Assembly (NCBI RefSeq): GCF_020166435.1
Contig: NZ_JAINZP010000013.1
Location: forward strand, 1 to 64,000
Source: Pectobacterium versatile
GTDB lineage: Bacteria > Pseudomonadota > Gammaproteobacteria > Enterobacterales > Enterobacteriaceae
Length of the DNA: 64,000 bases
Direction of reading: 5' to 3'
In this document: positions 10,446-35,876 of the stretch, piece after piece
Layout: every line of letters starts with the position of its first letter
How positions within the stretch are numbered: the first letter of the stretch is position 1
Made by a program: the position numbers and the translations under genes
Notes under the pieces: generated by a model
The model's database searches: none
What the model was told of the DNA's origin: nothing
The model's input: only the letters and a program-made list of their open reading frames with translations

Positions 10446-10466
10446 GTCCGCGAGGGGCAATAAAAC

Positions 10467-11153: not shown

Positions 11154-11167
11154 GGGCGTGACATTCC

Positions 11168-12367: not shown

Positions 12368-12427
12368 TGATGTTCAGCGTGCACCGTTTTTCAAAGGGTT
12401 ACGGACTGTTTTTTGGGGTTAAGGATT

Positions 12428-13831: not shown

Positions 13832-13848
13832 CGGGCTGAGGAGACGCG

Positions 13849-14829: not shown

Positions 14830-14843
14830 AGGGAGAGCCATTC

Positions 14844-15803: not shown

Positions 15804-15818
15804 CTTGTTATTTTCAGG

Positions 15819-15877
15819 GCATTGATTTTAAAAGCATTGATTTTAAAAGCATTGACTTTAAAAACATTGATTCCCGG
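15819..15877. repeat. Four 15-bp tandem repeats between tadC and tadD
   Basis: Units GCATTGATTTTAAAA, the same again, GCATTGACTTTAAAA and a decayed ACATTGATTCCCGG follow each other directly. They are the only AT-rich spot in an otherwise GC-rich operon. They may vary in number or carry a weak internal promoter. Confidence 0.75.
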
Positions 15878-15922
15878 TATCAGCCGGAAATCACCAGAGT
15901 TACAACCGATGGAGTTACGAAG

Positions 15923-17346: not shown

Positions 17347-17971
17347 TCGGTTACTGAAAACCAGTCGTGTATCGAAAACCAGCCGTTTCCTGAGCGTGAT
17401 ACGCCGCTTCTGGTTTTCTCACCGTGCCTCCACGGCGGTAGAAACGGCGTTAGCGTTCCCCATTGTGTTGGCGATTGGGTCGCTGTGCGCGGATATCTAC
17501 ACCGTCGGGCTTGAACGTACGCGCATGGAACAGCGTGCGGGCGCTATTTCGTCAATATTAGCGATGCAGCAGAAGCTGGATGAGAAAGGTCTACAAGGGC
17601 TACTCGATACGATGTTGCCAACGGAAGGTGCAGGAAATTACCAGCTGTTAATCAGCAACGTGCGTCAGACCGGTGAGCTGCACTGGCAGTTGAGCAGAGG
17701 CACGGCAGAAGCGCTGTGTACGGAAAGTGAAACGCTGCCGGGTGAAGAATATCTTCCTGAATTACCGGAAAGAGACCGCGAAGAGGGCAGCAAGAATATC
17801 TCCATGATCGTGGTTGAGATCTGCCGTCAGGGAAAGGATGTGGGTCTGCTGGGCGGCCTGTCACTGGGTGGCCTGCTGCATGCATCGTCAGTCAACCGGG
17901 TCGCTATCGACGTGGTTGAGCTTGATGAGGTACTCAGAAAAGAGGCCGGTTTGGAAGAAGAAGAGCAATAA
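17339..17971 (+). CDS. tadF: TadF-like pseudopilin
   Basis: A 210-residue protein whose ATG lies 8 nt inside the end of tadE, which is why I use 17339 rather than the upstream in-frame ATG at 17288. A basic leader of about 27 residues is followed by STAVETALAFPIVLAIGSL, the pseudopilin helix. The C-terminal part is acidic and ends EEEEQ. A 181-bp gap with small hairpins separates it from tadG. Confidence 0.82.
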   Translation: MTDRLLKTSRVSKTSRFLSVIRRFWFSHRASTAVETALAFPIVLAIGSLCADIYTVGLERTRMEQRAGAISSILAMQQKLDEKGLQGLLDTMLPTEGAGNYQLLISNVRQTGELHWQLSRGTAEALCTESETLPGEEYLPELPERDREEGSKNISMIVVEICRQGKDVGLLGGLSLGGLLHASSVNRVAIDVVELDEVLRKEAGLEEEEQ

Positions 17972-18152
17972 CGACGGGCTTTATATAAGACACAGAAGCG
18001 GCAAATAGACCGCAAACGGCAGCGAGCTTCTCGTTACCGGAATAACGAAACGATTAAAAAATCTATAGGCATATGAGCAATGTCGTTTTTATTTTCCCGC
18101 TTTATGGGCGGGTTGAGTACGCGCTGAATCCAGGAATACAGGATAGGAAGGA
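17972..18152 (+). other. tadF-tadG intergenic gap with small hairpins
   Basis: No gene is visible. There is a CGTTA/TAACG hairpin near 18034-18049 and a CCCGC/GCGGG hairpin near 18097-18113, with an AT-rich stretch between that could hold a second promoter for tadG and the giant gene. A GGAAGGA ribosome-binding site precedes tadG. Confidence 0.4.
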
Positions 18153-19791: not shown

Positions 19792-22700
19792 ATGACGCGA
19801 TTTGCCCCTTTCATTACAGGACATGACACGATGACTTTTTCCCGCTCAAAATCTGGTTCAGGCTTAACGCGCACACCGCGTCAGGCGTGGGTATTGGAAC
19901 CGCGCATGATGTTTGACGCCGCTGCCGTGGTCACCGCGGTAGATGTGGCTGCGCACGTCGCGGCAACGGATACCGCGCCCGGCGTTGATGCCACGCCGGT
20001 TAAGGCGACGGTCACCATCACCGACAGCAGCGACAGCTTCCAACCGGTCGATCTGTTCAGCAACGTTAGCGTGTCGGCGGATAACGGCGGACAAGAGCTG
20101 AAAGATTTAGTGATCACCGTTAACCGTACGGGCGCGAATCAGGCATTAGTCATCGACGGTAAAAGTATTACGCTGGAATCAGGGAGTGGGACGACGCGCG
20201 CGGAAGGGGATGGTTTTTCATACCGCGTGGCAGTGAGCGGAGAAACCACGACGGTGACCGTTAATATCGACGGTTTCACCAATAACCTCGCGGATACAAG
20301 GGCGATGATTGACAGTATCGCCTACCAGCCGCTGGATAAAACCGTGGCCGGCGGTGACGTGGTGGTGACGCTGAAAAGCTTGAGCGATGAGGGCGGCGAT
20401 GATACCGATACTGCCGATCTGAATATTCACGCTACAGTCACTATCGACAGCAAGATCAATGTGGCTCCGGTGGTATCCGCATCAGATGCGCCGGAACTGG
20501 CTGAATTAATCATCGTGCCTGGTATGGAATCCCCACAGGACGTGCGCTATTCCAGTAATGGTAATTATGCCTATGCCATAGGAAGCGATGGCACGCTGGG
20601 GGTCTTTACCGTCGGCGACCATGGCAAGCTGACGTCGAGCCAGACGCTGAGCGGCATAAGCGCACTCAAGGATGTGAAAGAAGTCGCACTGAGTGCTGAC
20701 AACCGTTCTCTGTACGCTATCACTGGTAATAGCAATATTGTTGCGCTGAGCCTCGACGACAATGGGCAGGTGGTTCGGCTCAGCGGCAGCGACGAGCAGC
20801 CGGTATATACCCAGACGATTGCTTCGCAAAACGGCAATATCACCGGGCTGGCTGTCTCCAGTGACGGTACCCAAGTTTATGTTGCCACACAGTGGAACGG
20901 CATGGTCATCTTTACTCGCGATACGACGACAGGGGGGCTGACGTTCCTTCAGCGCGTGAGTGACAGCGGGATTGATCGTAGCGGTATTGTGGCAAGTCGC
21001 GGTGACTATGTTGTCACGGTTGGGATGGGGGCGAAGCATACGCTATCGGTTTTCCAGCGGAGTGAGAACGGGACATTAACGTCTGTCGCCACGCTGGAAA
21101 CGTCTGGGGAAGGTTATGGCGCAGTAGACTACCAATTAGCGATCTCGAAGGATCAGCAGTTCATCTATGTTGCCGATCCTGACAGCGGAGAAATCAGCGT
21201 CTACCAACTGCGTGACGGTGCTGAAGGAAAAACGCTGGTCCACACGGACACGAAAACGCTGGAAGGCGTTAACGCGCTCTATCTTAACGCCGACGGTAGC
21301 CAGCTTTATGCGCTGAGCAGCGAAGGCGAGTTGCAGATTTATAGTGTAAGCACGTCGACAGGGGCGCTGAAGGAAGGCGGCCAGATTCAGAATATTGGCG
21401 ATACGCGTGGCATGGTGTTGTCACCCGATGGACAATCACTCTTGATCGCTGGTGAGGCCATCCAGCGCTTTAGCGCATTACGAACTTATCTCTATGGCAG
21501 CGAATTACCCTTTGCCGACCATATCGCGCTTTCCGATAGCAATCTGGATGTGTTAAACGGCGGTGCAGGCAACTATAAAGGTGCCACGTTGACCATTGGG
21601 CGTGAAACGCCTTCCGCAGACGATAGATTTGGCCTAAGTGCAGGTAACAATCTGACGCTGCAGGATGGAAAAGTTCTGCAATTAGGCACGGAGATTGGGA
21701 CATTCACGCAGAATCAGGGCGTACTCAGCGTGACGTTTACCACCGAGGTGACGAAAGAAACTGCCAATGCAGTCCTGAAACAAATTACCTACCGCAACGT
21801 CAGCAACCAGAGCGCCACCGAAACCGTCGCGCTGACGGTGACCGCGAACGATGGCGAGCTGAACAGCACGGTAACCACGGTCGCGCTGCTGCTGACCGCT
21901 AACAGTGTGCCAACGCTGGTTAGTCAGGGTGGAAGCAATCTGACGCTGGATACGCGCGGCTCCTCCGTCACGCTATTCAAAGACACCGCGATTAACACTG
22001 GGGAAGCTGGACAGGCGCTGACAAAATTGTCGATCGGTATTGATGGCCTAAACAACCCGAATCAGGAGTACCTGACGGTGGATGGCACAGTCATCGATCT
22101 GAGTAAGGACAGCGCGGGCACCACGGCTAGCGGTTACCAGTATACCTACACCTATAACGCCCTGAGCGGTGAGTCTTCACTGGTGCTGAGCAGCGTTCAG
22201 GGCATTAGCAGCATGGCGATGATGACGCTGGTCGACGGTCTGAGCTATTCGGCTGGCAAAGAGAGTACCAGCGCCAGCGGCTTGCGTACCATTACGCTAA
22301 CCGAGTTGCAGGATAACGGCGGCACTGCCAATGGCGGGAGCGACACCGCGACGCTGGCGATCTCCAGCAGCATCAATCTGGCCTTAAACGATGCGCCTGC
22401 GGTTGATGCAATCTATTCCCCTGACGCCACGCTGTTTTACAACGCGGGTACGCTAAGCGGTTACAACGAGCGCGTTTCGGCGATCAGTGTCTCTCAGGAT
22501 GGTAAAACCCTGCTGGTCACCGGTAGCGAAGGGAACAATAACAGCGGCAAGACTTATCTACGCGTTTACGCCCGTGATGCAGAAACCGGCGAATTGACGT
22601 TGCTACAAAGCTTCACGCAGGGCGAACAGGACGATCCGTCCACCCCTGCGATTGAGGTTAATGGTCTGAACACCATCACTACGCTGACGCAGTCGAAAGA

Positions 22701-25700
22701 TGGCTCCAGCGTGTATGTCGCGGGAGGAAGCGGAAGCGCCTACTCGCTGGTGCAATTTAGCCGCGATACCACGACAGGCCAACTGAGCTATGTCGGGATT
22801 GTCGCTACGCAGGGCGTGAATGGTGTTAGCGGTCTGGATGCGGCAGTGTCTGAGATTGTGCTGTCCGATGATGGCACGTCGCTGTATGCCATTAACGGCG
22901 TGACGCCAGTCGATGGTGCGACCACTAAAAACGCCGTTGTTTTCTTCTCGCGCGATACCACCTCCGGTGCGCTGACGTTTGTCGGTTCACTGGTTGGTAG
23001 CGATACCATTCCGCTGAAAAGCCCAAGCGGTATTGTGCTGTCCAGCGATGGCACATCGGCCTATCTCTCTAACCTAGGGAATCACAGTATTACCGTGCTG
23101 TCGCGCGATGCGGAGTCGGGTTCTCTGGATTACGTCACCACGATCAATAAAAGCACCATAGCGGCTGATGTGAACAGCGCGGAGATTCCGCAAAACGACC
23201 GCTACCTTGAGGGGTTGCAGGATATCGTTATCTCACCGGATAACCGTTTTGTGTATGTGTCATCAAACTCGCAGGGCACTGTGTCGATTTTCAGCCGTGA
23301 TGCAGATACAGGGGCGTTGACCTACGCCGGGACGTTGAATCTGTATAGTGCAGGCCATATTCCTGCGAACGCGCTGGCGTTACGTGAACTGGTGATTTCC
23401 GAAGATGGTTCGGCGCTGTATGTCGCAGCGTTCGGCAGTAAGTCGCTACTGGTACTGAGCCGCGATAGCGATTCCGGCGCGTTAACCTACCGCAATAGCG
23501 TTGAGCTCTCCGTTAACACTGTCAACCATCTCGCCGTCAGTGCGGATGGTAAGAATATCTATGCTGGGGTGAGCACTTTCTTTGCCGGGCTGAATGTGCT
23601 CACTGCGGCAGCAAATGCACCTTATAGCCAGACAGCGGACATGCCGTTTACCACGAGCGTCACGCTGTCAGACCGAGAACTGGATGCTGCCGATGACTAC
23701 AATGGCGCGACGATTGCGATTAGTCGTAATGGCGACGCATCGGCAAATGACCATTTTGCTTTCCAGAGCGGAGGCGACCTGACGCTGTCCGGTAGCGACA
23801 TTCAGTATCAGGGCGCGACAATCGCCACTTTTAGCGTGAGCGAAGGCACGGCGAAGATTGTCTTTACCGACAGCGTGACTAAAACGGTCGCCAATCAGGT
23901 TCTGCATCAGGTGACTTACCGTAATGATGGTGATGCGGCGGGTGCATCGATTCCACTGAATATCACCCTTAGCGACGGCGGTAAGGAGACGAGTCTGCTA
24001 TTGACGCTGGTGCAGAATAAACCACCAGTGGTGGATAACGATGCGTATACCCCGCCGTCTGGCGTGGCTGGACAGCATTACGAACAAACGCTTCCTGACG
24101 ATCTGTTCCGCGATCCTGAAAATGGTGCGCTGACGCTACAGGTCAATGGCCTTCCGGCTGGTTTAACCTTCGATTCAGACACACGCACGATTTCCGGTAC
24201 GCCAGCACTCAATGGTGCGGGAAGCTTCTCTATTACCGTCGTGGCGACCGATGCATCGGGTGAACAGGCGGAGCAGACGATTACGCTGACTATTGCCTCC
24301 GATCCTGCACAAATGCCGGCGCTCGGCGGTGAGTCCAGCTCTCTTCAGAATGACTATGCCCTTGATGGCTATGACTCCAATAATTATGTGGATGTGCTGA
24401 CAGGCGTAAAAGACAGCCAACTGTCCGCGGATGGCAAAACGCTCTATGTCGTGAGCTCACCTGATAGTGGGTCAGCGGTACTGAGCGTCTTTGTGCGCAA
24501 TGCGGAAGGGAAATTCACCCTGTCGCAAACCTTCTTCAACTACCGCTCCGTCTATAACAATGAGACAGAGCAAAACGATAACGTGGTAGACAATGCCGGA
24601 TTGGCCGGTGCGTCAGATGTGATTCTGTCTTCTGATGGACAGTACCTGTATGTGGTGGGCAGTGAAGGCAACGCAGTGGCCCTTTTCCGCGTTGGCAGCG
24701 ACGGTGAACTGACGCAAGCCGGTATCCTTGACCAAGCGGCGTTGGGCGGGCGTTCGTTGGACGTGCGTTCCCACATTGTTTCGCAAGGCGATTACCTCTA
24801 TGTAACGGCCGCCCAGTCCAACAGCGATACTGACGGCCGCAGCGTGCTGGTGTTTAAACGCGGTGCAGACGGCATGCTGTCTGCCGTTTCCCAAACCGAT
24901 AATCTGATTGGTGCGAGCCGTCTTGTGCTGGATCCAACCGGGCGTTATTTGTTTGTTGCCGGCGCTGGGGATGCGGTCGGCGTCACCGCGTTCAGCATCG
25001 ATGTAGAAGGCAAACTGAGCCAGCTTTCCCAGATTCGTGCTGAAGGTGACAACCTGTACTACATCCGCTCGCTGGCTCTTTCTCCTGACGGTAAAACCCT
25101 CTATGCGATTAATTCCGATGGGGAAAGTCACACGCTGAATACCATCACGGTGGGAGCTGATGGGGCGCTGACGCTGGCAGAAACAACGGCAATCACCGAT
25201 GACGGCGGCGATTCCGGTGAGGCGTTAGCGACCGATCTGGTCGTTTCTGCCGATGGTACGGCCCTGTTCGTGATCGGTAAGAACATTTCTGTATTCTCCC
25301 GCGCGGACGATGGCAGCCTGACGCTGAAAGCCACCCTTAGCGGTGGTTGGGATAGCCCGATTGGCATTTCTTTCTCCGATCTGCAAAAGGTGGAACTGAG
25401 TGCCGATGGCAAGCAGCTCTACCTGATTGGTGGCGATAAGGTCCATGTTCTGAATGTTGGCATTGCCGGTGCAAGCTATACCGAAGGTAACGATGCCACA
25501 GTGCTGCTGCCGTCTGGTCGTCTGTCCGATCCGCAGCTCGATGCGTTAAATAACGGTGTGGGTGATTATCGCGGTGCCAGTATCACCGTTGGTCGGGAAA
25601 ATGGTGGTCTACCGGAAGACACTTTTGGCTTTAAGGCCGAAAACGGTTTAACGCTTGATGGCAACAACATCATAAAAGATGGCTCTGTAATCGCGACCTT

Positions 25701-28700
25701 TACTCAAGTGGATGGGGCGCTGACGATTAAATTTATCGCAGCGGTAACCAAAGCCGAGGCGCAGAATGTGCTGCGCCAGATTACTTACCAGAACACCAGT
25801 CAGGATCCTGAACAAGCAGGATCGTCGCCGACCTTCACCTTCAGTATTAATGACGGTGACAATAACACCGCTAACATGGATATCACCGTCAATCTCGTTG
25901 GCGTGAACGATCCGGCGATATTGAATACAACGGTGCTCAACCCACAGGTTCCGGGCAACGGTGAATTCGTTAAGCTGTTTAAAGATACCCAGATTGACAC
26001 CATCGAGAGCGGACAAACCCTCTGGCAGGTCGTGTTAACGTTTGATGTCTCAGGGCCTAACGAAACGATTAGCGTGGATGGCAGCACGATTGTGCTCGAA
26101 AAATCCAACGGTGTTCCACGCACCGCCAGCGGCTTGCAATATTCTGTTGATGTGAAGGACGGTAAAGCGACGGTCCTCCTGTATGTCGGGAGAGACGCGA
26201 GTGGAACCGCCGAGATTATTGACAGCATCGGCTACAACTATCTGGGCAGCGCCCCCAGCGGTGAACGCCATGTCACCCTGATGATCAAGGAAAATAGTTA
26301 TAACGGAACCGCACCGGAAACTACGCTGGAACAGGCGATTACGCTGACGCTGGTGCCTGCGGCAGAAACCAATACCGCACCGATTATCACGGTTCCAGGG
26401 ACGACGCCGACGTATACCGAACGCGCTGACCCTATCGTGCTGGCACCGGACGCAACGGTGTCTGATGCGCAGATGGACAAACTCAATGGTGGCAAGGGCA
26501 ACTACGACGGCGCGACGCTGAAGATTACGCTGGGCGACGGTAAAACGGCGCTGGATAAGCTGGGCTTTAGTGCTGCAAAAAGTGCTGAAAATGGTCTGAC
26601 GTTATCCGGCAATACGCTTCAGAAAGACGGCGTCACTATTGGTCAGGTTAGTAATCAGGATGGCGTACTGACGATTCGCTTCAACGCGAATGCAGGCACA
26701 ATCCCGACCACGGAAGACGTGCAGAATACGCTGCGCCAGATTACCTACGCCAGCGACAGTCGTACGCCAGCCGCCCAGGTTGCGGTGACGGTGACGCTGT
26801 CCGACCGCTATCTGGAGTCTCAAGCCACGGCCTTGTCGGTAGCGATTACCGCGATCAACGACACGCCTGTCGTGGCGAACGATCCGGTGCTTTCTGCCGA
26901 TGAACTGCGTTTGGTGAATACCTACACCGCGATTAGCGGGCTGGGCACGTTGACGGCGGCTGCTCGTACGATCGATGGGCTGTCTTTGTATGTCAGCGAT
27001 GATAAAGGCGCGATTGCCTTATTCCAGCGTGATGCGAACAGTGGCGAATTGACCTATGTGCGCACCTTCGCGGCGGCAGAGGGCGTGACAGGAATAAGCC
27101 AGCTACAGGTTTCTGCCGATGGCAACAGCGTGTATGCGTTGCGTGCTGACGGCAATGCGATTGTCTGGTTTAGCCGGAATGGTGAAGGCAATCTGGAACA
27201 TAAAGAAACCATCGTTGATGTCTACGAGATACACAACAGCAACCTTTACGACATCAAAGGGATCACCCTGTCTGATGATGGCAAGACGTTGTATGTCATC
27301 AACAACTACAACCTTCTCTGGTTTACCCGCGACACGGCAACAGGCAAGCTTGATTATGTTGGGCTGGTCGAGGGCGGGATGTGGAGTGAGCCTTACCTGT
27401 GGCAATCGAGTGAGGTAGTCAGCCGCGGTAATCTGCTATTTGTGACGACGAACACCAGCAGTGGCTCATCACTGATTGTGTATACGCGTGGTGACGACGG
27501 CAAGCCGACGCTATTGGGGAACATCCGCAGCTTTACCGATGCCGCAGACAATACCGTAGAACTTTCAGGGCTGGAGCAACTCACGGTCAGCGCCGATGGC
27601 CGCAGCATCTTTGTTGCCAGTGCAGGGCAGATCGATGCCTTCTCGCTGGATACCGCTACGGGAACCTTTACGCACCTTGCTCGCGTTGCGGCAGAAGGCA
27701 CGGTGAATCATATCGCCCTTGCTGCGGATGCGCGGGTGCTGTACGTCACGCAAAGCGACGGTGCGCTCACTCGCTATGTATTGAACGGCGAGACGCTGAC
27801 AAAACTCGATACGCTGAAAAACGAGGGTACAGGCTTCACTCATCTGCTGCCAGTTGACGGTGGTCTGATTACGCTCGGCAACGGTGTGTCGGTGCTGGAT
27901 GAAGCTTCTCGCCTGCCGGTTTATCGCGTTGATGGCCCGGCGGTGATTGTCGCGCCTTCTATCGTTCTCAGTGATGCAGAACTGGATGCACTGAACGGCG
28001 GGGCGGGAAATTATCAGGGTGCCTCCATCACGCTACAGCGCGGTGAAACGGCCTCAACAAGCGATCGCTTCGATTTTACTGCGGGTAACGGTTTTACCTT
28101 AGCGAATGGCGTCATTAGTAAAGACGGGCAAGCGGTAGCCATCTTCACGCAGGCGGATGGCAAGCTCACCGTGACCTTCACTGCTGCCCTTTCTCGTGCG
28201 GATGCGACGGTGCTGGCACGTCAGATTAGCTGGGCGACGAACGCACCGCTGACGGGGAGCGCGACATCGCTGACGTTGATGCTTAATGACGGCGTAGCCG
28301 ATTCTGCGGCGCAGGCGCTCGACGTTACGCTGTCGAGAGAGGTGAACCTGCCGCCAGTTGGTCATGCAGAGCAGTTCACACCGCCAACGGCACAGGCTGG
28401 CACCAACTGGTCTTATACCTTACCGAGTACGCTATTTACCGATCCTGAAAATAATGCGCTGACGTTTACCGTTGATGATGCGCAACTGCCAGAAGGCGTG
28501 CGTTTTGATAGTGCAACACGGACGCTCAGCGGCACGCCGTCAACGGCGGGAACGTTCAACCTGACGATTACCGCCAGAGACAGCGCGGGTAACGCGACTG
28601 CACTCAATGTGGTGCTGACGATCAATGCCGCCTCGACGCCGGTCGATCCTGGCACACCAGTCGATCCCGGTACACCAACAGAGCCAGTGAACCCCGATAA

Positions 28701-29559
28701 CACCGTGACAGCGGCACCGGTGATACTGGTGCAGCAGGGCGCAAACCTGTCCGTTGATTCGAGTGACAGAGAACGCGAACAGCCGCTGGGCGCGATTGTC
28801 GCCGATCTGTCTCGCCCGGAAGCACAACCGCTACCAAGCAACATCGTCACCGAACCTGTACGCCAGCGTGATGCCGATACGTCACGCCAGTCGGATGCCC
28901 CTTGGGTGCTCGATCCCGTCATGTCATCGCTGATGCCGACGCTGGAGCAGGTCAATTTCTCTTCACGCGCTGAGGCGTCCCTTCGCGATAACGCCGCGCT
29001 GCGTTCGGCTGATTCCAATCTGTTCCTGAGTGTGCGCGGTCAGACAACGTCGCTGGAATCGGCTTTCAGCAGCGTGCAGGGCGCGTTACAGCCGGATGCC
29101 TCTGGCACACTCGCTTTTAGCCTGCCGCAGCGCATGTTCAGCGTACGTGAAGGTAATGCCACGCTGACGCTGCAACTGGCGAACGGGCGTCCGCTGCCTG
29201 CGTGGGTGCAGTTCGATGCCCACAACAGTGTGGTGCGCATTACCGATGCCAGTGCAGTGCAGGTTAATCAGATCCAACTGGCGCTGAAAGCGCAGGCCGC
29301 AGACGGCACCAGCCGAATCGTACCGATTACGCTGCAAACCGGACAGGGCGATGGCGCAGAGAGGGTGACTGACCGTGGCGCGATGCAATTACCCGCACAC
29401 TCTGTTGTTCCCACTGCCGCAGACCCGGCTGAAAACCGGAATGCAGAACGGTTAGCGCCAGCAGGTAAAACCGCCTTTACCGAACAGTTGCGTCAGCATC
29501 AGCCTGAACAGGATGCGCTGCTGGCGGCGCTCAGTGAACTGAGCAGCCTGCGTACATAG
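19792..29559 (+). CDS. Giant LEPR-motif repeat protein (3255 aa), likely secreted adhesin or matrix protein
   Basis: No classical signal peptide is seen. The N-terminus carries the LEPR motif (LEPRMMFDAAA, residues 35-45) known from very large secreted repeat proteins. Three modules recur. Module A (about 52-170, 705-870, 2045-2200) has LFKDTxI..E.GQ and VDG.xI.L. Four lactonase/YVTN-like beta-propeller stretches (about 237-570, 877-1270, 1520-1893, 2370-2713) repeat LSxDGxxLYV. Module B occurs five times (about 584, 1297, 1915, 2227, 2727) with LDxLNGGxGNYxGA. Two dystroglycan-type cadherin-like domains (about 1413-1503 and 2852-2945) have DPENxALT and SGTP. A Pro-rich linker (about 2950-2967) precedes a unique tail of about 290 residues. 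No RTX nonapeptides are seen. Start is 19792 or 19831. It follows tadG by 19 nt and precedes an exporter-like gene set. Surface role is inferred. Confidence 0.85.
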   Translation: MTRFAPFITGHDTMTFSRSKSGSGLTRTPRQAWVLEPRMMFDAAAVVTAVDVAAHVAATDTAPGVDATPVKATVTITDSSDSFQPVDLFSNVSVSADNGGQELKDLVITVNRTGANQALVIDGKSITLESGSGTTRAEGDGFSYRVAVSGETTTVTVNIDGFTNNLADTRAMIDSIAYQPLDKTVAGGDVVVTLKSLSDEGGDDTDTADLNIHATVTIDSKINVAPVVSASDAPELAELIIVPGMESPQDVRYSSNGNYAYAIGSDGTLGVFTVGDHGKLTSSQTLSGISALKDVKEVALSADNRSLYAITGNSNIVALSLDDNGQVVRLSGSDEQPVYTQTIASQNGNITGLAVSSDGTQVYVATQWNGMVIFTRDTTTGGLTFLQRVSDSGIDRSGIVASRGDYVVTVGMGAKHTLSVFQRSENGTLTSVATLETSGEGYGAVDYQLAISKDQQFIYVADPDSGEISVYQLRDGAEGKTLVHTDTKTLEGVNALYLNADGSQLYALSSEGELQIYSVSTSTGALKEGGQIQNIGDTRGMVLSPDGQSLLIAGEAIQRFSALRTYLYGSELPFADHIALSDSNLDVLNGGAGNYKGATLTIGRETPSADDRFGLSAGNNLTLQDGKVLQLGTEIGTFTQNQGVLSVTFTTEVTKETANAVLKQITYRNVSNQSATETVALTVTANDGELNSTVTTVALLLTANSVPTLVSQGGSNLTLDTRGSSVTLFKDTAINTGEAGQALTKLSIGIDGLNNPNQEYLTVDGTVIDLSKDSAGTTASGYQYTYTYNALSGESSLVLSSVQGISSMAMMTLVDGLSYSAGKESTSASGLRTITLTELQDNGGTANGGSDTATLAISSSINLALNDAPAVDAIYSPDATLFYNAGTLSGYNERVSAISVSQDGKTLLVTGSEGNNNSGKTYLRVYARDAETGELTLLQSFTQGEQDDPSTPAIEVNGLNTITTLTQSKDGSSVYVAGGSGSAYSLVQFSRDTTTGQLSYVGIVATQGVNGVSGLDAAVSEIVLSDDGTSLYAINGVTPVDGATTKNAVVFFSRDTTSGALTFVGSLVGSDTIPLKSPSGIVLSSDGTSAYLSNLGNHSITVLSRDAESGSLDYVTTINKSTIAADVNSAEIPQNDRYLEGLQDIVISPDNRFVYVSSNSQGTVSIFSRDADTGALTYAGTLNLYSAGHIPANALALRELVISEDGSALYVAAFGSKSLLVLSRDSDSGALTYRNSVELSVNTVNHLAVSADGKNIYAGVSTFFAGLNVLTAAANAPYSQTADMPFTTSVTLSDRELDAADDYNGATIAISRNGDASANDHFAFQSGGDLTLSGSDIQYQGATIATFSVSEGTAKIVFTDSVTKTVANQVLHQVTYRNDGDAAGASIPLNITLSDGGKETSLLLTLVQNKPPVVDNDAYTPPSGVAGQHYEQTLPDDLFRDPENGALTLQVNGLPAGLTFDSDTRTISGTPALNGAGSFSITVVATDASGEQAEQTITLTIASDPAQMPALGGESSSLQNDYALDGYDSNNYVDVLTGVKDSQLSADGKTLYVVSSPDSGSAVLSVFVRNAEGKFTLSQTFFNYRSVYNNETEQNDNVVDNAGLAGASDVILSSDGQYLYVVGSEGNAVALFRVGSDGELTQAGILDQAALGGRSLDVRSHIVSQGDYLYVTAAQSNSDTDGRSVLVFKRGADGMLSAVSQTDNLIGASRLVLDPTGRYLFVAGAGDAVGVTAFSIDVEGKLSQLSQIRAEGDNLYYIRSLALSPDGKTLYAINSDGESHTLNTITVGADGALTLAETTAITDDGGDSGEALATDLVVSADGTALFVIGKNISVFSRADDGSLTLKATLSGGWDSPIGISFSDLQKVELSADGKQLYLIGGDKVHVLNVGIAGASYTEGNDATVLLPSGRLSDPQLDALNNGVGDYRGASITVGRENGGLPEDTFGFKAENGLTLDGNNIIKDGSVIATFTQVDGALTIKFIAAVTKAEAQNVLRQITYQNTSQDPEQAGSSPTFTFSINDGDNNTANMDITVNLVGVNDPAILNTTVLNPQVPGNGEFVKLFKDTQIDTIESGQTLWQVVLTFDVSGPNETISVDGSTIVLEKSNGVPRTASGLQYSVDVKDGKATVLLYVGRDASGTAEIIDSIGYNYLGSAPSGERHVTLMIKENSYNGTAPETTLEQAITLTLVPAAETNTAPIITVPGTTPTYTERADPIVLAPDATVSDAQMDKLNGGKGNYDGATLKITLGDGKTALDKLGFSAAKSAENGLTLSGNTLQKDGVTIGQVSNQDGVLTIRFNANAGTIPTTEDVQNTLRQITYASDSRTPAAQVAVTVTLSDRYLESQATALSVAITAINDTPVVANDPVLSADELRLVNTYTAISGLGTLTAAARTIDGLSLYVSDDKGAIALFQRDANSGELTYVRTFAAAEGVTGISQLQVSADGNSVYALRADGNAIVWFSRNGEGNLEHKETIVDVYEIHNSNLYDIKGITLSDDGKTLYVINNYNLLWFTRDTATGKLDYVGLVEGGMWSEPYLWQSSEVVSRGNLLFVTTNTSSGSSLIVYTRGDDGKPTLLGNIRSFTDAADNTVELSGLEQLTVSADGRSIFVASAGQIDAFSLDTATGTFTHLARVAAEGTVNHIALAADARVLYVTQSDGALTRYVLNGETLTKLDTLKNEGTGFTHLLPVDGGLITLGNGVSVLDEASRLPVYRVDGPAVIVAPSIVLSDAELDALNGGAGNYQGASITLQRGETASTSDRFDFTAGNGFTLANGVISKDGQAVAIFTQADGKLTVTFTAALSRADATVLARQISWATNAPLTGSATSLTLMLNDGVADSAAQALDVTLSREVNLPPVGHAEQFTPPTAQAGTNWSYTLPSTLFTDPENNALTFTVDDAQLPEGVRFDSATRTLSGTPSTAGTFNLTITARDSAGNATALNVVLTINAASTPVDPGTPVDPGTPTEPVNPDNTVTAAPVILVQQGANLSVDSSDREREQPLGAIVADLSRPEAQPLPSNIVTEPVRQRDADTSRQSDAPWVLDPVMSSLMPTLEQVNFSSRAEASLRDNAALRSADSNLFLSVRGQTTSLESAFSSVQGALQPDASGTLAFSLPQRMFSVREGNATLTLQLANGRPLPAWVQFDAHNSVVRITDASAVQVNQIQLALKAQAADGTSRIVPITLQTGQGDGAERVTDRGAMQLPAHSVVPTAADPAENRNAERLAPAGKTAFTEQLRQHQPEQDALLAALSELSSLRT

Positions 29560-29598
29560 CACACGTAGGCTGAATATTAAGACGAGATTTTATTTACT

Positions 29599-29725
29599 TA
29601 TACCCTAAATAATTCGAGTTGCGTGAAGGCGGCAACTGCACGAATCCCCAGGAGCTTACACAGGTAAGTGACTGGGGTGAGTAAGGGCAGCCAACGCACA
29701 AGCAGCTTGAAGTATGACGGGTATA
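29599..29725. repeat. MITE-like element, family A, copy 2 (127 bp, reversed)
   Basis: It begins TATACCCTAAATAATTCGAG and ends CTTGAAGTATGACGGGTATA, the reverse orientation of the copies at 2338 and 39328. It sits 39 nt after the giant gene, between it and its putative exporter genes. Confidence 0.85.
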
Positions 29726-29741
29726 ACCACTAACCCGGGCG

Positions 29742-29774
29742 CTTGCAGGCGGTAACCAACCCACCGCCTGCAAG
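29742..29774 (+). terminator. Perfect 11-bp hairpin between the giant gene and the exporter genes
   Basis: CTTGCAGGCGG and CCGCCTGCAAG flank an 11-nt loop. No U-run follows, so this is more likely a partial terminator or mRNA-stability hairpin. It lies 25 nt before the TolC-like gene start. Confidence 0.5.
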
Positions 29775-29798
29775 ATGAAGGGAACAGACAAATAGAAG

Positions 29799-31619
29799 AT
29801 GGGGAGAACCCGGGTGAATCAGCACATAGCGCATTTCTGGGATAGCCAGCAACACGACAGTCAGCAGCAGAACGTTCAACACGAGGCTACACCACGCACC
29901 GCGGGTTCTCGGGCGTTACGGATCGCAGTAGCTCTTGCCTGTCTGGGGCTGGCTGGCTGTGCCGTCAAACCTGAACCGGTTACGATCGAACAGCAGGTCG
30001 CACAGGCGCTGAGCGACAGAACGCAGATGTTCGCTAATCAGGAACCAGTACGCGGTACGATCACGCTGGATGAGGCGATTGCCCGTGCGCTGAAATATAA
30101 CCTGCAACAGCGGGTCGCGCTGATGGAACAGGCGATGGAAGATGACCTGTTGGGCGTACAGAATCTGGATATGCTGTTACCGAAACTGACCGCACGCGCT
30201 GGGTTACAAACCCGCGATAACGTGGCCGGTTCCAGCAGCCAGTCGGTCACCACTGGACGGCAGTCGCTGGAAGCGTCCACCAGTCAGGATCAGACCATGC
30301 GCACCGCCGATCTAACGATGAGCTGGAACGTGCTGGACTTCGGTATTAGCTATTTCAACGCCAAAGTACAGGCGAACAAATCGCTGGCGGCGGAAGAGCG
30401 TCGTCGTCGCGTGGTGGCCGATATTACCCGTCAGGTGCGTACCGCTTATTGGGAAGCGGCCACGGCACAGCGTTTGCAGCCGGAAGTGACCACCGCGCTG
30501 ACGCAGGCGCGTCAGGCACTGGAATATGCGCGTCAGACGGAACAGCAACGCCTATTGGCACCGGTTGAAGCGCTGCGTTTCCAGAAGAACATGCTGGAGA
30601 TGGTGCGCCAGTTGGAGATTGTCGACAGCGATCTGGTGGTGGCGAAATCCCGTCTGGCGGCGCTGATGAACCTGCCACCGTCGAGCAAATATGACGTCGT
30701 TGTGCCGAGCGAAAGCAGCCTGGTCGCGCCGAAGATGGCCTACTCGCTCGACGATTTGGAAAACTTCTCGATGGTTAAGCGCCCGGAAGTGCGTGAAGAG
30801 AGTTATCTGGCCCGCAATAGCGTACTGGAAACCCGTAAATCGCTGCTGCGTCTGCTGCCGGGCGTGTCGCTGTTTGCCGGTATTAACGGTGACAGCAACA
30901 GCTATCTGGTTAATCACCAGTGGGCGAACGCGGGCGTTCAGGTCAGTGGTAACCTGCTGAACGTGCTGTCGTGGTCATCGGTGAAACGAGCCGGACAGGC
31001 GAATGAAGATCTGGCAGAAGTTCGTCGTCAGGCGCTGCGCATGGCGGTGCTGACGCAGGTGAACGTCGCCTGGCAGGAATATCAGCAGAGTACGCAGATG
31101 TTTGGCCGCTATCAGGAACTGGCGCGGATTCAGCGCGGCATCCTTAATCAGACCACGCTCAGCGTACAGCATCGTGCCGAAACGCAGATGGAACAGGTGC
31201 GCGTCAGCACGGAAACCATTCTGACGACCCGCGCGCGTGACCGCAGCTTTGCCGATGTGCAGAACGCGCTGGGCGCGGTGTATCAGGCTGCTGGGCTGGA
31301 TGTGCTGCCGGATAACGTGAACGATGTCAGTCTGGCGGCGCTGAGCAGCTCAATTGCCCGCACCACGGGTAACCTTGAGAAAGGCGGCGTTGCGGTGCCA
31401 CGTCTGTCCCTGTCAACACCAGCTACGCCTGCCACCACGACGGCTTCGGCTAAAACAGCATCCACTCCATCCGCAGCACCTGTAGTGAAGCCGGTTGCCT
31501 CGTCGACGACGGCATCGTCTGCTGCGACATCGTCGGCTGGCGCGGGTAAGCCTTATCGCGTGGTGAACACGGATATGTGGGATAACCTGCAATCCCTACA
31601 GGCGGGAGGTTCGCGTTAA
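29799..31619 (+). CDS. TolC-family outer-membrane lipoprotein
   Basis: A 606-residue outer-membrane efflux protein. After an unusual 35-residue polar N-terminus comes a lipoprotein signal with lipobox GLAGC (C54 from ATG 29799). The body (about 85-500) has the TolC pattern: LDEAIARALKYN, long amphipathic helices and ARQALEYARQTEQQ. The last 100 residues are a Ser/Thr/Ala/Pro-rich linker ending in a short GKPYRVVNTDMWDNLQSLQ motif. A GTG at 29814 has the better ribosome-binding site (GGGGAG) and may be the true start. Its stop overlaps the next gene's start (TAATG). It should form the outer-membrane duct of the exporter-like set encoded here. Confidence 0.87.
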   Translation: MGRTRVNQHIAHFWDSQQHDSQQQNVQHEATPRTAGSRALRIAVALACLGLAGCAVKPEPVTIEQQVAQALSDRTQMFANQEPVRGTITLDEAIARALKYNLQQRVALMEQAMEDDLLGVQNLDMLLPKLTARAGLQTRDNVAGSSSQSVTTGRQSLEASTSQDQTMRTADLTMSWNVLDFGISYFNAKVQANKSLAAEERRRRVVADITRQVRTAYWEAATAQRLQPEVTTALTQARQALEYARQTEQQRLLAPVEALRFQKNMLEMVRQLEIVDSDLVVAKSRLAALMNLPPSSKYDVVVPSESSLVAPKMAYSLDDLENFSMVKRPEVREESYLARNSVLETRKSLLRLLPGVSLFAGINGDSNSYLVNHQWANAGVQVSGNLLNVLSWSSVKRAGQANEDLAEVRRQALRMAVLTQVNVAWQEYQQSTQMFGRYQELARIQRGILNQTTLSVQHRAETQMEQVRVSTETILTTRARDRSFADVQNALGAVYQAAGLDVLPDNVNDVSLAALSSSIARTTGNLEKGGVAVPRLSLSTPATPATTTASAKTASTPSAAPVVKPVASSTTASSAATSSAGAGKPYRVVNTDMWDNLQSLQAGGSR

Positions 31620-32392
31620 TGGCTTTCGGCATGATGCGTCCGCTATTGCTGGCCAGTGTGTTAGGTCTGCCCCTGTTGGGGCAGGCTGCGACAACGGGAG
31701 ACATTCGCGTACAGCTTAGCGCACAGCGCTATACCGTGTTATCCAGCGAAATTGCGGGGAAAGTGACGGATATTGCGGTGAAAGAGGGTGAACACTTCAA
31801 GCAGGGCGATACGCTGGTGACATTTGACTGCACCGTGCTGCGCGAAAAACTGAACTACTCAAACGCCGCAGAGAATGCCGCGCGTAAGAAGCTGGCGATT
31901 GCCGATCGGCTGGATAAGCTCAATTCGATCAGCCTGTCGGATGTCGATCAGGCGCGATCGTCGGTGTCGATGGCGCAGGCCGAAAGCGGCGTCAATCGCG
32001 CCATGCTGCAACGCTGTGCCATCAAAGCCCCGTTCTCTGGTCGCGTAACGGAAACCAAGGTGAAGCGTTGGGAATCCGTGCCGGAAGGCAAAGAGCTGTT
32101 GGCGATTTATGATGACAGCGCGTTTGAGCTGGAAATGATCGTGCCATCGCGCTGGCTGGTGTGGCTAAAACAGGGCAGCGCCTTTCAGGTCACGCTGGAT
32201 GAAACTGGTCTGAGCTATCCGGCGGAAATCAGCCGCCTTTCTTCGGCGATCGATCCGGTCAGCCAGTCGGTAAAAGTCTTTGGTCGGATTACCCAATCCA
32301 CCGCTGGATTACTGCCGGGGATGAGTGGCGTAGCGCAAATTAGTGACGTAGCACAGACAGTGCCGCCTGATGCCGGTAGCGTGTCGCCATGA
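31619..32392 (+). CDS. HlyD/RND-type periplasmic adaptor
   Basis: A 257-residue exported adaptor with a signal peptide (about 1-23, cleavage after GQA). The biotinyl-lipoyl domain is split around a short helical hairpin: IAGKVTDIAVKEGEHFKQGDTL on one side and KAPFSGRVTETKV on the other. It ends in a beta-barrel-like domain with LPGMSGVAQI. Such adaptors bridge an inner-membrane machine to a TolC duct. Its end overlaps the next gene by 4 nt (ATGA). Confidence 0.87.
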   Translation: MAFGMMRPLLLASVLGLPLLGQAATTGDIRVQLSAQRYTVLSSEIAGKVTDIAVKEGEHFKQGDTLVTFDCTVLREKLNYSNAAENAARKKLAIADRLDKLNSISLSDVDQARSSVSMAQAESGVNRAMLQRCAIKAPFSGRVTETKVKRWESVPEGKELLAIYDDSAFELEMIVPSRWLVWLKQGSAFQVTLDETGLSYPAEISRLSSAIDPVSQSVKVFGRITQSTAGLLPGMSGVAQISDVAQTVPPDAGSVSP

Positions 32393-33744
32393 CCGAACGG
32401 AACACGACAGCAGCACAAACTGAACAGGATACCCGGCTGGCACTGCTGGCCGAGCTGTTGCAGCTGCAAAGCCGTGCCAGAGCGCGTGAAACGCTGGATG
32501 AGCTGGCGTTTTTCATCGTCAACGAGACGCATAATTTAGTGAAGTATCGGCAGGCGCTGCTGTGGGACTGTGATAAACGGCGCTTGCAGGCGGCTTCCGG
32601 GCTGGCCTCGCTCGATCACAACGCGCCGTTTTGTACCGAATTTAGCCGCCTGTGCCGTCAGTGGCAGGAAGAGGGGCGTCAAACGCAGGCGCTGCAATGC
32701 CGCGAGCTGCCTGCTGATGATCAGATTTTGTGGCAGGAGCATCTGCCGGAATTTTTACTCTGGCTACCGCTGCGTTTAGCGCAGGGCGATACGCCGCTGG
32801 TGCTGGTGTTAGCACGGGACAGCGCGTGGCTGCCAGCCGAGATCGTGCTGCTGGAAAAACTGGCGGACGCGTATGCTCACGCGTGGGCGAGTTTGCAGAA
32901 AAAACGTCGGCGGCAGACGAATACCAGCCCGAAGAAGCGTCGTTTGATTCTGGCTGGGATCGTGCTGCTGGCGCTGATCTTATTGATCCCCGTTCGCCAG
33001 TCGGTGCTGGCTCCGGCTGAGATCGTCGCGCATCGTCCGGTGATGGTGCGCGCCCCCGTGGCGGGCGTGGTGGATGACATTCTGGTACGGCCTAATCAGG
33101 CCGTTAGCGCCAATCAGCCGCTGGTGCGACTGGACGTGCGCGAACTGGAAAACCGGCTGGAATCGGCCCGACAGGCTTTTGCTACCGCTGATGCTCAGTA
33201 TCGTCAGGCACAGCAGCAGGCGCTGTTCGATGCCAATAGCAAGGCCAGTCTGGCCGTGCTGCAAAGCCGCCGTGAACAGGCGCAGAGCGAGATGGACTTT
33301 CTGCAACGTCAGCAGGAACGCATGCAGCTCGCTTCCCCGCGCGACGGCGTGGCGATTTTTGACGATAGCAGCGACTGGATTGGGCGCTCGGTGGCGGTGG
33401 GAGAACGTATCATGATGATCGCCGATCCGCACGATGTTGAGCTGGAGATCCAGTTGCCCGCGGCGGATGCGATTGCGTTGGAAAACGGCGCGGATGTGCG
33501 CCTGTTCCTCAATGTAGCGCCGAATTCGGCACAGGACGCGCGGCTGGAGCAGATTGGCTATCGCGCCGCGCCGACGCCGGACAATGTGATGGCCTATCGG
33601 TTGCGGGCACGCTTTACACAGGATGATCCGCAACTGCGCGTGGGCCTGAAAGGAACCGCCAAGCTGTACGGTAAACGCACGGTGCTGTTCGTTTACCTGC
33701 TGCGTAAACCGCTGGCGTCACTGCGCGTCTGGTTGGGTGTCTAA
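32389..33744 (+). CDS. HlyD-type adaptor with an N-terminal GAF-like cytoplasmic domain
   Basis: A 451-residue protein in three parts. Residues 1-175 are soluble and resemble a GAF fold (ETLDELAFFIVNETHNLVKYRQALLW, then LPLRLAQGDTPLVLVLARD); the GAF label is a fold-level guess. One membrane helix follows at about 184-202. The periplasmic part is HlyD-like, with lipoyl halves VRAPVAGVVDDILVRPNQAV and ASPRDGVAIFDD around a coiled-coil hairpin (about 245-310). A cytoplasmic sensory domain on an adaptor is unusual and could gate export. It is followed after 2 nt by the M50 gene. Confidence 0.82.
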   Translation: MTERNTTAAQTEQDTRLALLAELLQLQSRARARETLDELAFFIVNETHNLVKYRQALLWDCDKRRLQAASGLASLDHNAPFCTEFSRLCRQWQEEGRQTQALQCRELPADDQILWQEHLPEFLLWLPLRLAQGDTPLVLVLARDSAWLPAEIVLLEKLADAYAHAWASLQKKRRRQTNTSPKKRRLILAGIVLLALILLIPVRQSVLAPAEIVAHRPVMVRAPVAGVVDDILVRPNQAVSANQPLVRLDVRELENRLESARQAFATADAQYRQAQQQALFDANSKASLAVLQSRREQAQSEMDFLQRQQERMQLASPRDGVAIFDDSSDWIGRSVAVGERIMMIADPHDVELEIQLPAADAIALENGADVRLFLNVAPNSAQDARLEQIGYRAAPTPDNVMAYRLRARFTQDDPQLRVGLKGTAKLYGKRTVLFVYLLRKPLASLRVWLGV

Positions 33745-33746
33745 CG

Positions 33747-35876
33747 ATGGCCGGAGGTGCGACGTCGGCCGCTGGGCTCAGCCCGCTGCGCGATGAACTG
33801 ATCCTGCACGCTGGCCCCGCTAACCGTGACGGATCGCCTAGCTGGACGCTGGAAGATCCGCTACGTGGCCTCTATTTTCGTATCGGCTGGGCGGAAATGG
33901 CGATGCTATCGCGCTGGTCGATGGGGAACGCGGCGCAGATCGTGGCCGAGGTTAACCAGACTTCTGCACTGACGCTCGATGACAGCGATGTGCAGTATTT
34001 CAACCGTTTCTTGCAGGCCAACAGCCTGACGCGGGTTTCTGGCGATGAGGCAATGGCGCAGTTTTCCCGTCAGGTGGAACAGTCGCGCGTTTCGATCTGG
34101 CGCAAGCTGTTGAAGAACTATCTATTTTTTCGCATTCCCTTGTGGCACCCCGATCGCTTTCTGGGCGCGACCTTACCGTGGATCGAGCCGTTTTTCAGCC
34201 GGACTTTTCTCAAGCTGACGCTGCTGGTGGCCGTGCTGGGGCTATTCCTCGCCGGACGCCAGTGGGAAACGTTCAAGCATACGTTTCTGCATTTCTTCAC
34301 GCTGGAAGGCGCAGTGCTGGCAGGGCTGACGCTGTGTTTTACCAAGATTCTGCATGAGTTCGGCCATGCCTACACCTGCAAGCGCTTTGGTGCGCGGGTT
34401 GCTACGATGGGCGTCGCGTTTCTGGTGATGATGCCGGTGCTGTACACCGATACGTCTGGCTCGTGGAAACTTACCCGCCGTCGGGAGCGGATGGCGATTG
34501 GCGCAGCGGGCATGATGACCGAGCTGGTGCTGGCGGCGTGGGCGACGCTGGCATGGAGCTTCTTGCCAGACGGCATGCTGCGCAGCGCCGCGTTTATGCT
34601 GGCGACGACAACCTGGATTATGACGCTGGCGATTAACCTCAGCCCGCTGATGCGCTTCGACGGCTATTTCCTGCTTTCCGATGGATTACAGATGCCGAAC
34701 CTGCAAAACCGAGGCTTTGCTATCGGCCGCTGGCAGATGCGGGAATGGCTGTTCGGCTTAGGCGATGCCCCGCCGGAGCACTTTCCCCGCTGGCTGCAAC
34801 GTACGCTGGTGGGCTATGCCTTTGCGGTGTGGATATACCGTTTCTTCCTGTTTACCGGTATCGCGATTCTGGTTTACCACATGACATTCAAACTGCTGGG
34901 GATGCTGCTTTTCGCGATTGAAATCGGCTACTTCGTGGTGATGCCGGTGGTGAATGAAGTACGCGAGTGGAGTAAACGCCGTAAGGATTATCGTATGAAC
35001 CGTAATATGACGACAACGCTGACTGTGAGCGCTGTGATTCTGCTCTTGCTGATGATTCCCTGGCAGCGTGGCGTGTACGCCCCAGCGCTGCTGCGGGCGG
35101 AACAGCAAAGCAGCCTGTATATGCCCGTACCTGCGATGATTCAGCGCATTGACGTACAGGTTGGTCAGCCCGTGCACGCCGGGCAGACGCTGTTTACGCT
35201 GTCGTCTGACGCGCTGGCGCACGAACGGCAACAGCTGGAACGACAAATCGCTACGCTGAACTGGCAAAGCACCTTTCAGGTATTTAACAAGGAAGCGGCT
35301 GGCGATCACCAGCGAGTAAAGCAGGAACACGAAGCGGCGCTGCAAAAATTACAGGTATTGCAGCGCCAATCTGAACAACTGACGGTGCGTGCGCCGATAG
35401 ACGGCGTGGTGGCAGACATGGCGACACCGCTGGAAACGGGTGAGTGGCTGGGGCAGGGGGAATGGCTGGCGGTCGTCACCAAGCCAACCGGCGGGCTGGT
35501 GGAAGCGTTCGTGTCGGAAAAAGACTGGCAGCGGCTCCGCACGGGCGCAAAGGGGACGTTTTATTTACAGGACGTGAACCGCTCGTCGCTGCCGCTCACT
35601 ATTGTGGAGATTGCCAGCACGGCAACCCGCGATCTGAACGCCGCGCCGGAGTTGGCATCGATTTACGGCGGCGATATTGCCACGTTGAGCGACGCACAGC
35701 GCAAGCTGCATCCTGAACAGGCCGTTTATCGCGTGTTGCTCAGTCTGCCTGACGATTATCGTGCCCAGCCGCAGGTGCTGCGTGGCACGGTGGTGATGGA
35801 CGGTGAGGCGCAAAGCCTGCTGATTCGCGGCTGGAAAGTGGTGTCCGCCGTACTGATTCGCGAGCTGTCATTCTGA
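33747..35876 (+). CDS. M50 (site-2-protease type) membrane metalloprotease fused to a HlyD-like domain
   Basis: A 709-residue polytopic membrane protein. Zinc motif HEFGH lies at 203-207 and the third ligand D305 in LMRFDGYF, both as required for an active site-2-type protease. Hydrophobic helices span about 150-420. After a last helix near 425-440 a periplasmic HlyD-like part follows, with lipoyl halves around a coiled coil (MIQRIDVQVGQPVHAGQTLF and VRAPIDGVVADM). Fusions like this are annotated as putative peptide zinc metalloproteases. No ABC ATPase lies in this operon or its neighbours, so this protein stands where the exporter ATPase would be in type I secretion. Substrate inferred to be the giant protein. 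Confidence 0.85.
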   Translation: MAGGATSAAGLSPLRDELILHAGPANRDGSPSWTLEDPLRGLYFRIGWAEMAMLSRWSMGNAAQIVAEVNQTSALTLDDSDVQYFNRFLQANSLTRVSGDEAMAQFSRQVEQSRVSIWRKLLKNYLFFRIPLWHPDRFLGATLPWIEPFFSRTFLKLTLLVAVLGLFLAGRQWETFKHTFLHFFTLEGAVLAGLTLCFTKILHEFGHAYTCKRFGARVATMGVAFLVMMPVLYTDTSGSWKLTRRRERMAIGAAGMMTELVLAAWATLAWSFLPDGMLRSAAFMLATTTWIMTLAINLSPLMRFDGYFLLSDGLQMPNLQNRGFAIGRWQMREWLFGLGDAPPEHFPRWLQRTLVGYAFAVWIYRFFLFTGIAILVYHMTFKLLGMLLFAIEIGYFVVMPVVNEVREWSKRRKDYRMNRNMTTTLTVSAVILLLLMIPWQRGVYAPALLRAEQQSSLYMPVPAMIQRIDVQVGQPVHAGQTLFTLSSDALAHERQQLERQIATLNWQSTFQVFNKEAAGDHQRVKQEHEAALQKLQVLQRQSEQLTVRAPIDGVVADMATPLETGEWLGQGEWLAVVTKPTGGLVEAFVSEKDWQRLRTGAKGTFYLQDVNRSSLPLTIVEIASTATRDLNAAPELASIYGGDIATLSDAQRKLHPEQAVYRVLLSLPDDYRAQPQVLRGTVVMDGEAQSLLIRGWKVVSAVLIRELSF

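Follow-up and report, generated by a model that had tools for sequence, protein, structure and literature searches.

Gene content of the locus

The window analyzed here is a 64,000-nucleotide stretch of Pectobacterium versatile DNA (NCBI RefSeq assembly GCF_020166435.1, contig NZ_JAINZP010000013.1, positions 1–64,000). It contains five consecutive forward-strand genes encoding a giant protein with an N-terminal LEPR motif and four putative export components, the last of which is an M50 protease fused to a HlyD-type domain (M50-HlyD). The giant protein (P0001; 19792–29559) contains 3255 residues in its re-read open reading frame (ORF), and Pfam assigns to it six lactonase-type beta-propeller stretches and Ig-like He_PIG domains. 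It is followed by a TolC-type outer-membrane lipoprotein of 606 residues (29799–31619; TolC/OEP, PF02321, 73.7 bits; lipobox identified by eye) and by the HlyD-type adaptor H1 (P0003; 31619–32392), which has 257 residues, an N-terminal hydrophobic segment and a PF13437 (HlyD_3) match. The second adaptor, H2 (P0004; 32389–33744), has 451 residues and consists of a weakly GAF-like N-terminus (15.3 bits, under the cut-off of 22.4), a hydrophobic segment at about residues 181–214 found by hydropathy, and a HlyD domain (HlyD_3 and HlyD_D23). The M50-HlyD fusion (P0005; 33747–35876) has 709 residues and matches Peptidase_M50 (27.3 bits, cut-off 27.2) and HlyD_3. Its HExxH zinc motif is HEFGH (residues 203–207; 34353–34367), and the third zinc ligand, Asp305, lies in NLSPLMRFDG, a motif of the NxxPxxRxDG type (34635–34664).

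A first-pass annotation had described the same five same-strand genes; the ORFs, protein family assignments, HEFGH and Asp305 were all verified. It had missed the weakly GAF-like domain of H2 and a PqqD-like domain in the M50 protein, and both are added here.

Conservation of the gene set

Related loci were collected by a scan of genome contigs, and the best 80 of 390 relatives were analyzed, with the genes of the block identified by models built from the window and from a second copy of the set in the same genome. H2 adjoins the M50 gene in 78 of these loci, H1 is found in 66 and TolC in 60, and all four export genes are present in 58, many of the misses lying at contig ends. The closest relative among them is labelled Pectobacterium carotovorum DSM 30168, and its M50 protein is 99% identical. 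The 80 loci come from three phyla, and their record titles include alpha-, beta-, gamma- and zetaproteobacteria, Nitrospirota and Desulfobacterota, with many metagenome-assembled genomes (MAGs) and one record titled Mycobacterium that is possibly misbinned.

The second copy in the window genome (contig C24) encodes an M50-HlyD protein 39% identical to P0005, with its own H1, H2 and TolC, and a giant of 2754 residues that has LEARMLFDGA near its N-terminus and carries DUF4347. In the giant at L004, DUF4347 occupies residues 133–291 and shows a HIISHG...LYGCS pattern reminiscent of a His–Cys protease dyad of the caspase-like clan. Tail-collar-like proteins (identified by eye) occur near LEPR giants at L004 (9580–10572), L084 (13104–13715) and L024 (1–403), in two cases sitting between the M50 gene and the giant, which is also the arrangement in the second copy; they are possible accessory proteins.

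A LEPR start is visible within the first flank at 29 of the 80 loci. For twelve loci with the 5' end of the giant out of view (L165, L167, L170–L179), upstream DNA was added and a LEPR start appeared in all twelve. An overlap check confirmed for each that the LEPR frame continues into the frame of the giant; in the case of L179, a masked run separates it from the next giant ORF of L042. Among five second-copy loci, a LEPR start is present in L182 and L183, the 5' end of the giant is out of view in L180 and L181, and L184 has no giant in view. LEPR open frames in G240:C84, G053:C1 and G107:C1 encode 14112, 13848 and 12249 residues, respectively.

The motif appears to vary with the clade of the M50 partner, judged from the visible N-termini. 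In clade A, the nearer homologues, it is mostly LExRxxFD[AG]A. The more distant clade B has LExR[IV]VLDAA in four of four visible N-termini (L113, L117, L118, L121), the giant of L114 being cut. A LEPRLLLSAD-like start is seen in five of 18 loci of clade C, the most distant (L126, L130, L131, L133, L134), and in the remaining clade C loci the 5' end is cut or no LEPR giant is in view.

M50-HlyD also matches 55 plasmid records, including 18 from Escherichia and eight from Citrobacter, of which one was inspected. On this conjugative plasmid (NZ_CP142906.1, L139; 2309–22073), the same set lies with a 4465-residue protein that starts with a LESRQLFDGA motif, and H2 is annotated as two overlapping coding sequences. 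Azospirillum brasilense also gives an M50-HlyD match.

Genome-wide co-occurrence

Co-occurrence was assessed in a sample of 369 genomes of the same class (Gammaproteobacteria). M50-HlyD matches of E≤1e-40 were accepted, no more than three candidates being scored in each genome. A LEPR protein was counted when the independent NCBIfam model LEPR-8K scored 17 bits or more in a frame of 500 residues or longer, or when our own profile reached at least 30 bits. M50-HlyD was matched in 55 genomes, and is present in 36 of 40 LEPR genomes versus 19 of the 329 others (Fisher p 1.7e-31, indicative only because the species share ancestry). The corresponding counts are 32/34 versus 23/335 with the NCBIfam model alone, 36/42 versus 19/327 when long frames helped by their neighbors are added, and 38/49 versus 17/320 when any frame length is allowed. 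Dropped from the main count were NCBIfam matches in frames under 500 residues, in genomes with M50-HlyD (G077, 497 residues; G090) and without it (G120, G237, G147, G355, G007, G196, G074), as well as G300 and G093, both without M50-HlyD, which pass the cut-off only with their neighbors. Since the LEPR and M50 genes often lie on separate contigs in draft genomes, adjacency is not expressed as a rate.

Among the LEPR-positive exceptions, G123 has a contig-end piece matching the N-terminus of M50-HlyD, and M50-HlyD was looked for and not found in G213, G245 and G076. The survey mostly bears out the association that the first-pass annotation had proposed: LEPR proteins are rarely found in the absence of M50-HlyD, M50-HlyD is accompanied by a LEPR protein in 36 of its 55 genomes, and none of the 80 related loci has an ATP-binding cassette (ABC) gene inside the block.

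ABC transporters and type I secretion

Of the hallmarks of a type I secretion system (T1SS), the locus has the TolC-family channel, whereas an ABC ATPase, a type I adaptor and RTX repeats were not found. The three adaptor proteins score 31 (P0003), 19.8 (P0004) and 33.5 bits (P0005) against a cut-off of 208.65 for the type I adaptor model TIGR01843. Pfam reports no RTX repeats in P0001, and more than two GGxGxD motifs occur in two of 68 long clade A ORFs, many of which are incomplete. H1 exceeds the cut-off of the resistance-nodulation-division (RND) adaptor model TIGR01730 (119.7 versus 94.9 bits). No RND pump family is present in the five proteins, and the other ORFs in 19792–35876 are shorter and overlap them.

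A genome-wide ABC search, in which 150 of 195 candidates were scored, gave no ABC domain over cut-off on the window contig and lists no match on the contig of the second copy. The lone sub-threshold match on the window contig (13181–13678) falls in the Tad-pilus ATPase TadA (PF00437, 219.7 bits). At the related loci, a model of seven ABC proteins of the window genome (matches over 50 bits) found an ABC gene inside the block in 0 of 80 loci and elsewhere in the flank in seven, a weak 27-bit match in L036 being omitted from the count. ABC genes beside the clade B loci L117 and L121 were considered as exporters and rejected, as their products have twin ATP sites and no evident membrane domain and are of ABC-F type by eye.

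Unlinked T1SS genes were sought in 40 genomes carrying the set. The type I adaptor is over cut-off in 31, and no TIGR01843 match at E≤1e-20 was found in the other nine, the best 33 candidates having been scored in five of these. The same nine have no LssB-type (TIGR03375) or PrtD-type (TIGR01842) ABC protein over cut-off among the candidates scored. The window genome, in contrast, passes both ABC models, and G323 passes TIGR01842. Eight of the nine genomes are 95–100% complete and the other is a Nitrospira MAG record titled chromosome; a LEPR protein was counted in seven of them and none in G235 and G194. For ABC exporters, the best matches listed in the nine begin no earlier than position 140 of the model, in frames of 575–656 residues. 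None therefore shows the N-terminal domain of the HlyB class (the HlyB model TIGR01846 itself was not searched), and these features would fit MsbA-class exporters. Since no T1SS adaptor match and no LssB- or PrtD-type ABC protein over cut-off was found among the candidates scored in these nine genomes, a canonical unlinked T1SS ABC transporter cannot be the general motor. The window genome, however, has four T1SS ABC genes over cut-off elsewhere, and an unlinked transporter could thus still act in this strain. On this point, too, the outcome mostly favors the first-pass position.

The M50-HlyD fusion

The HExxH motif and the distant Asp motif are kept in 81 of 81 homologues; HE[FL]GHA was one of two patterns in the homologue scan, and the Asp motif played no part in it. 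Pfam M50 matched all 65 full-length members at E≤0.1, and PDB profile searches matched MJ0392 and RseP. With HExxH, a far Asp ligand and a predicted membrane domain, P0005 has the features of a site-2 protease.

The N-terminus of the fusion resembles PqqD, the leader-binding fold of pathways for ribosomally synthesized and post-translationally modified peptides (RiPPs), as judged by profile comparison. A clade A profile of 56 N-termini aligned with 17 PqqD-like domains over 70 columns with an hhalign probability of 90.9 and an E of 1.1e-6, and controls (the GAF-like domain, H1 and eight column-shuffled profiles) reached a probability of at most 1.7. Two relatives pass the cut-off of Pfam PqqD (PF05402): G052 (29.2 bits), which is truncated at a contig end, and G009 (25.5 bits). 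PqqD is not listed at E≤0.1 in a Pfam scan of the 65 full-length members, and when the N-terminal domain was searched against PDB sequences, the single match was at chance level (E 1.5). In P0005, the PqqD-like domain spans about residues 32–101 (33840–34049). It is likely cytoplasmic, since it precedes the first hydrophobic segment (residues 148–172 by hydropathy). Both this domain and the LEPR variants, which appear to differ with M50 clade, support the first-pass suggestion that the fusion takes up or processes the substrate.

Ends of the giant protein

The LEPR motif of P0001, LEPRMMFDAA, occupies residues 35–44 (19894–19923). The 70-residue N-terminus matches NCBIfam LEPR-8K (NF012209) with 18.7 bits against a cut-off of 17 (19.1 bits in the genome search), and LEPR-8K is not listed in a scan of full-length P0001. 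The relatives at L165 and L170 begin at an internal Met ("MTF"), so that translation more likely starts at 19831 than at 19792. The 19-residue stretch 39–57, together with the next one, is the hydrophobicity maximum of the whole protein. In 29 giants, the LEPR segment is within the top 5% of hydrophobic stretches in 27 (36% for random stretches) and within the top 1% in 17 (10% for random stretches). The best hydrophobic stretches near LEPR reach about 0.6–1.5 on the Kyte-Doolittle scale and include the conserved Asp; in many N-termini, basic residues precede the motif and a borderline hydrophobic stretch follows it.

At the other end of P0001, a motif of the GKTAFTEQL type (residues 3217–3236; 29440–29499) was detected with E 0.0026 by a model whose training set comprised 18 sequences, all from alpha/beta giants except for a wrong-frame ORF from L044. 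Outside that set, its best matches (all E≤0.0026) are the C-termini of L074, L006, L007 and P0001 together with two further ORFs, one in L066 and one in L013 that stops immediately ahead of TolC; the next match has an E of 0.099. Three of 18 listed test C-termini pass an E of 0.01, and L006, L007 and P0001 are near relatives; the motif is therefore real but partial by this test. Five giants (L032, L052, L064, L073 and L105; three from Nitrospirota, one from Nitrosomonas and one other) end in a common hydrophobic segment with a PAW..[FIV]DPL motif and not in the GxxxF[ST]xQL type.

Neighboring genes

A Tad/Flp pilus locus lies directly upstream on the same strand (7988–19772), with a secretin, the TadA ATPase and a TadG-like last gene, as a linked neighbor outside the core set. 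The TadG-like gene stops 19 bp short of the first ATG in the giant ORF and 58 bp short of 19831. With this spacing, the two loci may form a single operon that includes an ATPase gene roughly 6 kb ahead of the giant. The first-pass annotation had noted no ATPase gene between 19792 and 37935; no ABC domain over cut-off was indeed found on the contig among the candidates scored, but TadA qualifies that statement. By eye, a TadG-like gene is also directly 5' of the giant in nine other loci (L007, L012, L016, L023, L165, L170, L171, L173, L174), of which L165 alone shows further Tad genes. This suggests joint expression with the giant in relatives whose records are titled Pectobacterium, Brenneria, Serratia, Pantoea, Pseudomonas, Marinomonas and Bordetella. 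Downstream of the set, 36205–37935 encodes a rhamnogalacturonate-lyase-like protein with polysaccharide lyase family 4 domains.

Proposed function and alternatives

Several observations bear on function: the block is conserved, LEPR proteins co-occur with it, no ABC gene was found inside it, and its M50 protein has a PqqD-like domain. The LEPR starts of all twelve extended giants, the variants paired with M50 clade, the hydrophobic LEPR segment and the nine genomes without a detected T1SS point the same way. On balance, we consider it probable that the set forms a dedicated machine of the cell envelope for the export and/or display of giants marked by the N-terminal LEPR signal. In the cytoplasm, the PqqD-like domain would bind the LEPR leader; cleavage at the M50 site would probably fall in the neighboring hydrophobic stretch of FDAAAxATA type, and the conduit may form when H1, H2 and the fused HlyD domain dock on TolC. 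More tentatively, the set could represent a separate type of secretion system in which a leader-reading intramembrane protease-adaptor fusion takes the place of the ABC exporter and serves LEPR giants as long as about 14,000 residues in at least three phyla and on plasmids; this further step is plausible, but we would not yet call it probable. The first-pass interpretation is partly supported, most firmly in gene content and association.

Several findings weigh against a dedicated machine. Elsewhere than at the locus, the window genome encodes four T1SS ABC proteins over cut-off, two of LssB type and two of PrtD type, and MsbA-class exporters could also serve in the nine genomes without a detected T1SS, in five of which the candidates were incompletely scored. 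PF05402 was found in the M50-HlyD protein of two of six genomes carrying the fusion (in a sample of 56), and P0005 alone gives no Pfam PqqD match. The clearest exception to co-occurrence is G213, which is 100% complete and encodes a LEQRLLLS giant (G213:C57:21725, a 7373-residue frame) with no M50-HlyD at E≤1e-10; conversely, 19 of the 55 genomes with M50-HlyD have no counted LEPR protein. RTX-type repeats occur in a long ORF at two clade C loci, and a LEPR-XLL giant of Vibrio, as described in a passage of PMC10868602, carries RTX and serralysin domains, which argues for a T1SS for part of the LEPR family.

Ordinary type I secretion through an unlinked ABC transporter, in which the M50 set would be an accessory, draws on the four ABC proteins of the window genome and on the T1SS adaptor over cut-off in 31 of 40 genomes. 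We consider it quite improbable, given the nine genomes that carry the set with no qualifying match to the three T1SS models (best-ranked candidates only in some) and the fact that both LssB-type ABCs of the window genome have an adaptor, a TolC and adhesin-like genes of their own nearby (by eye). A rather unlikely but serious alternative is that the giant exits C-terminus first and the M50-HlyD complex holds its LEPR end as a surface anchor until an M50 cut frees it, in the manner of LapA/LapG. The C-terminal motif is common to giants of different classes and occupies the position expected of a type I export signal, and the hydrophobic segment at the LEPR N-terminus and the conserved catalytic residues would also fit such retention; yet the motif is not universal, five giants ending in a hydrophobic segment, the cross-trained model recovers part of the test set, and the timing of the cut cannot be read from sequence.

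It is also unlikely that Sec or another general translocon carries the giant across the inner membrane, LEPR being an atypical signal cut by the M50 protease and the adaptors and TolC having a periplasmic role only. Many N-termini do have basic residues ahead of LEPR and a borderline hydrophobic stretch behind it, but hydrophobicity of this degree combined with the conserved Asp would make a weak Sec signal, and the PqqD-like domain would be left unexplained. That the adjoining Tad machinery, through TadA and its secretin, drives or shares export is very improbable: the TadG-like gene is directly 5' of the giant in the window and nine other loci, but another gene precedes the giant in the second copy and in Nitrospira loci such as L037 (where Tad genes elsewhere were not searched).

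Comparison with known systems

The dedicated machine proposed here would resemble type I secretion (HlyB/HlyD/TolC, LapBCE, PrtDEF) in its TolC-family protein, HlyD-type adaptors and very long adhesin-like substrates with no evident signal peptide. Unlike those systems, the M50 block has no ABC ATPase, its three adaptor domains all fall under the T1SS adaptor cut-off, and it has an intramembrane protease, a PqqD-like domain and the LEPR motif. LapA/LapD/LapG, an adhesin retention and release system, likewise involves a giant adhesin that may be held by its N-terminus and released by proteolysis, but the protease here is a membrane protein of the M50 family with an adaptor fused to it. The M50-fold leader peptidases of RiPP pathways are also similar: residues 66–399 of P0005 match the daptide HExxH family NF041824 (148.1 bits) and residues 185–316 match YydH/LiaK NF058609 (33.1 bits), next to a PqqD-like candidate leader reader. 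P0005 nevertheless stays under both cut-offs (300 and 225), its proposed substrate is a giant and it carries a fused HlyD domain.

The NCBIfam entry LEPR-8K (LEPR-XLL domain) describes the same kind of N-terminal motif on very long proteins, and P0001 passes its cut-off; the entry names the domain only, and the link to M50-HlyD comes from this analysis. RSP and RSP2 of IncHI plasmids are likewise large secreted Ig-like proteins, and some enterobacterial plasmids carry relatives of the M50 set, but passages of PMC6764697 and PMC8730810 assign their export to the plasmid type IV secretion system. This route was accordingly rejected as a match; the words TolC, HlyD and peptidase are absent from the main texts of both papers. 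A paper on hlyD and phage resistance in Dickeya solani (PMC10169776) was set aside, as it names the mutated gene prtE, reports proteases as still made and, in the passages concerned, offers no link to the locus. Among open-licence PMC papers, preprints excluded, none found states an export route for LEPR giants, and those naming LEPR-XLL state no export machinery in the passages concerned; the secretion route thus provisionally appears undescribed in that literature. New here are the PqqD-like N-terminus, the apparent LEPR variants by M50 clade, the C-terminal motif in many giants and the TadG-like gene 5' of the giant in several genera.

Biological implications

Giants with a LEPR start are frequent, being found in 36–40 of the 369 genomes sampled, and the plasmid copies in Enterobacterales extend their interest past environmental bacteria. 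Tying the LEPR motif to one membrane protein points to a likely reader, protease and conduit, and makes an anonymous domain a testable signal. If an ABC transporter is recruited in trans, the set would still be a new accessory class. If no ATPase is needed, some other source of energy would have to drive thousands of residues out of the cell, which is a basic question of envelope biology.

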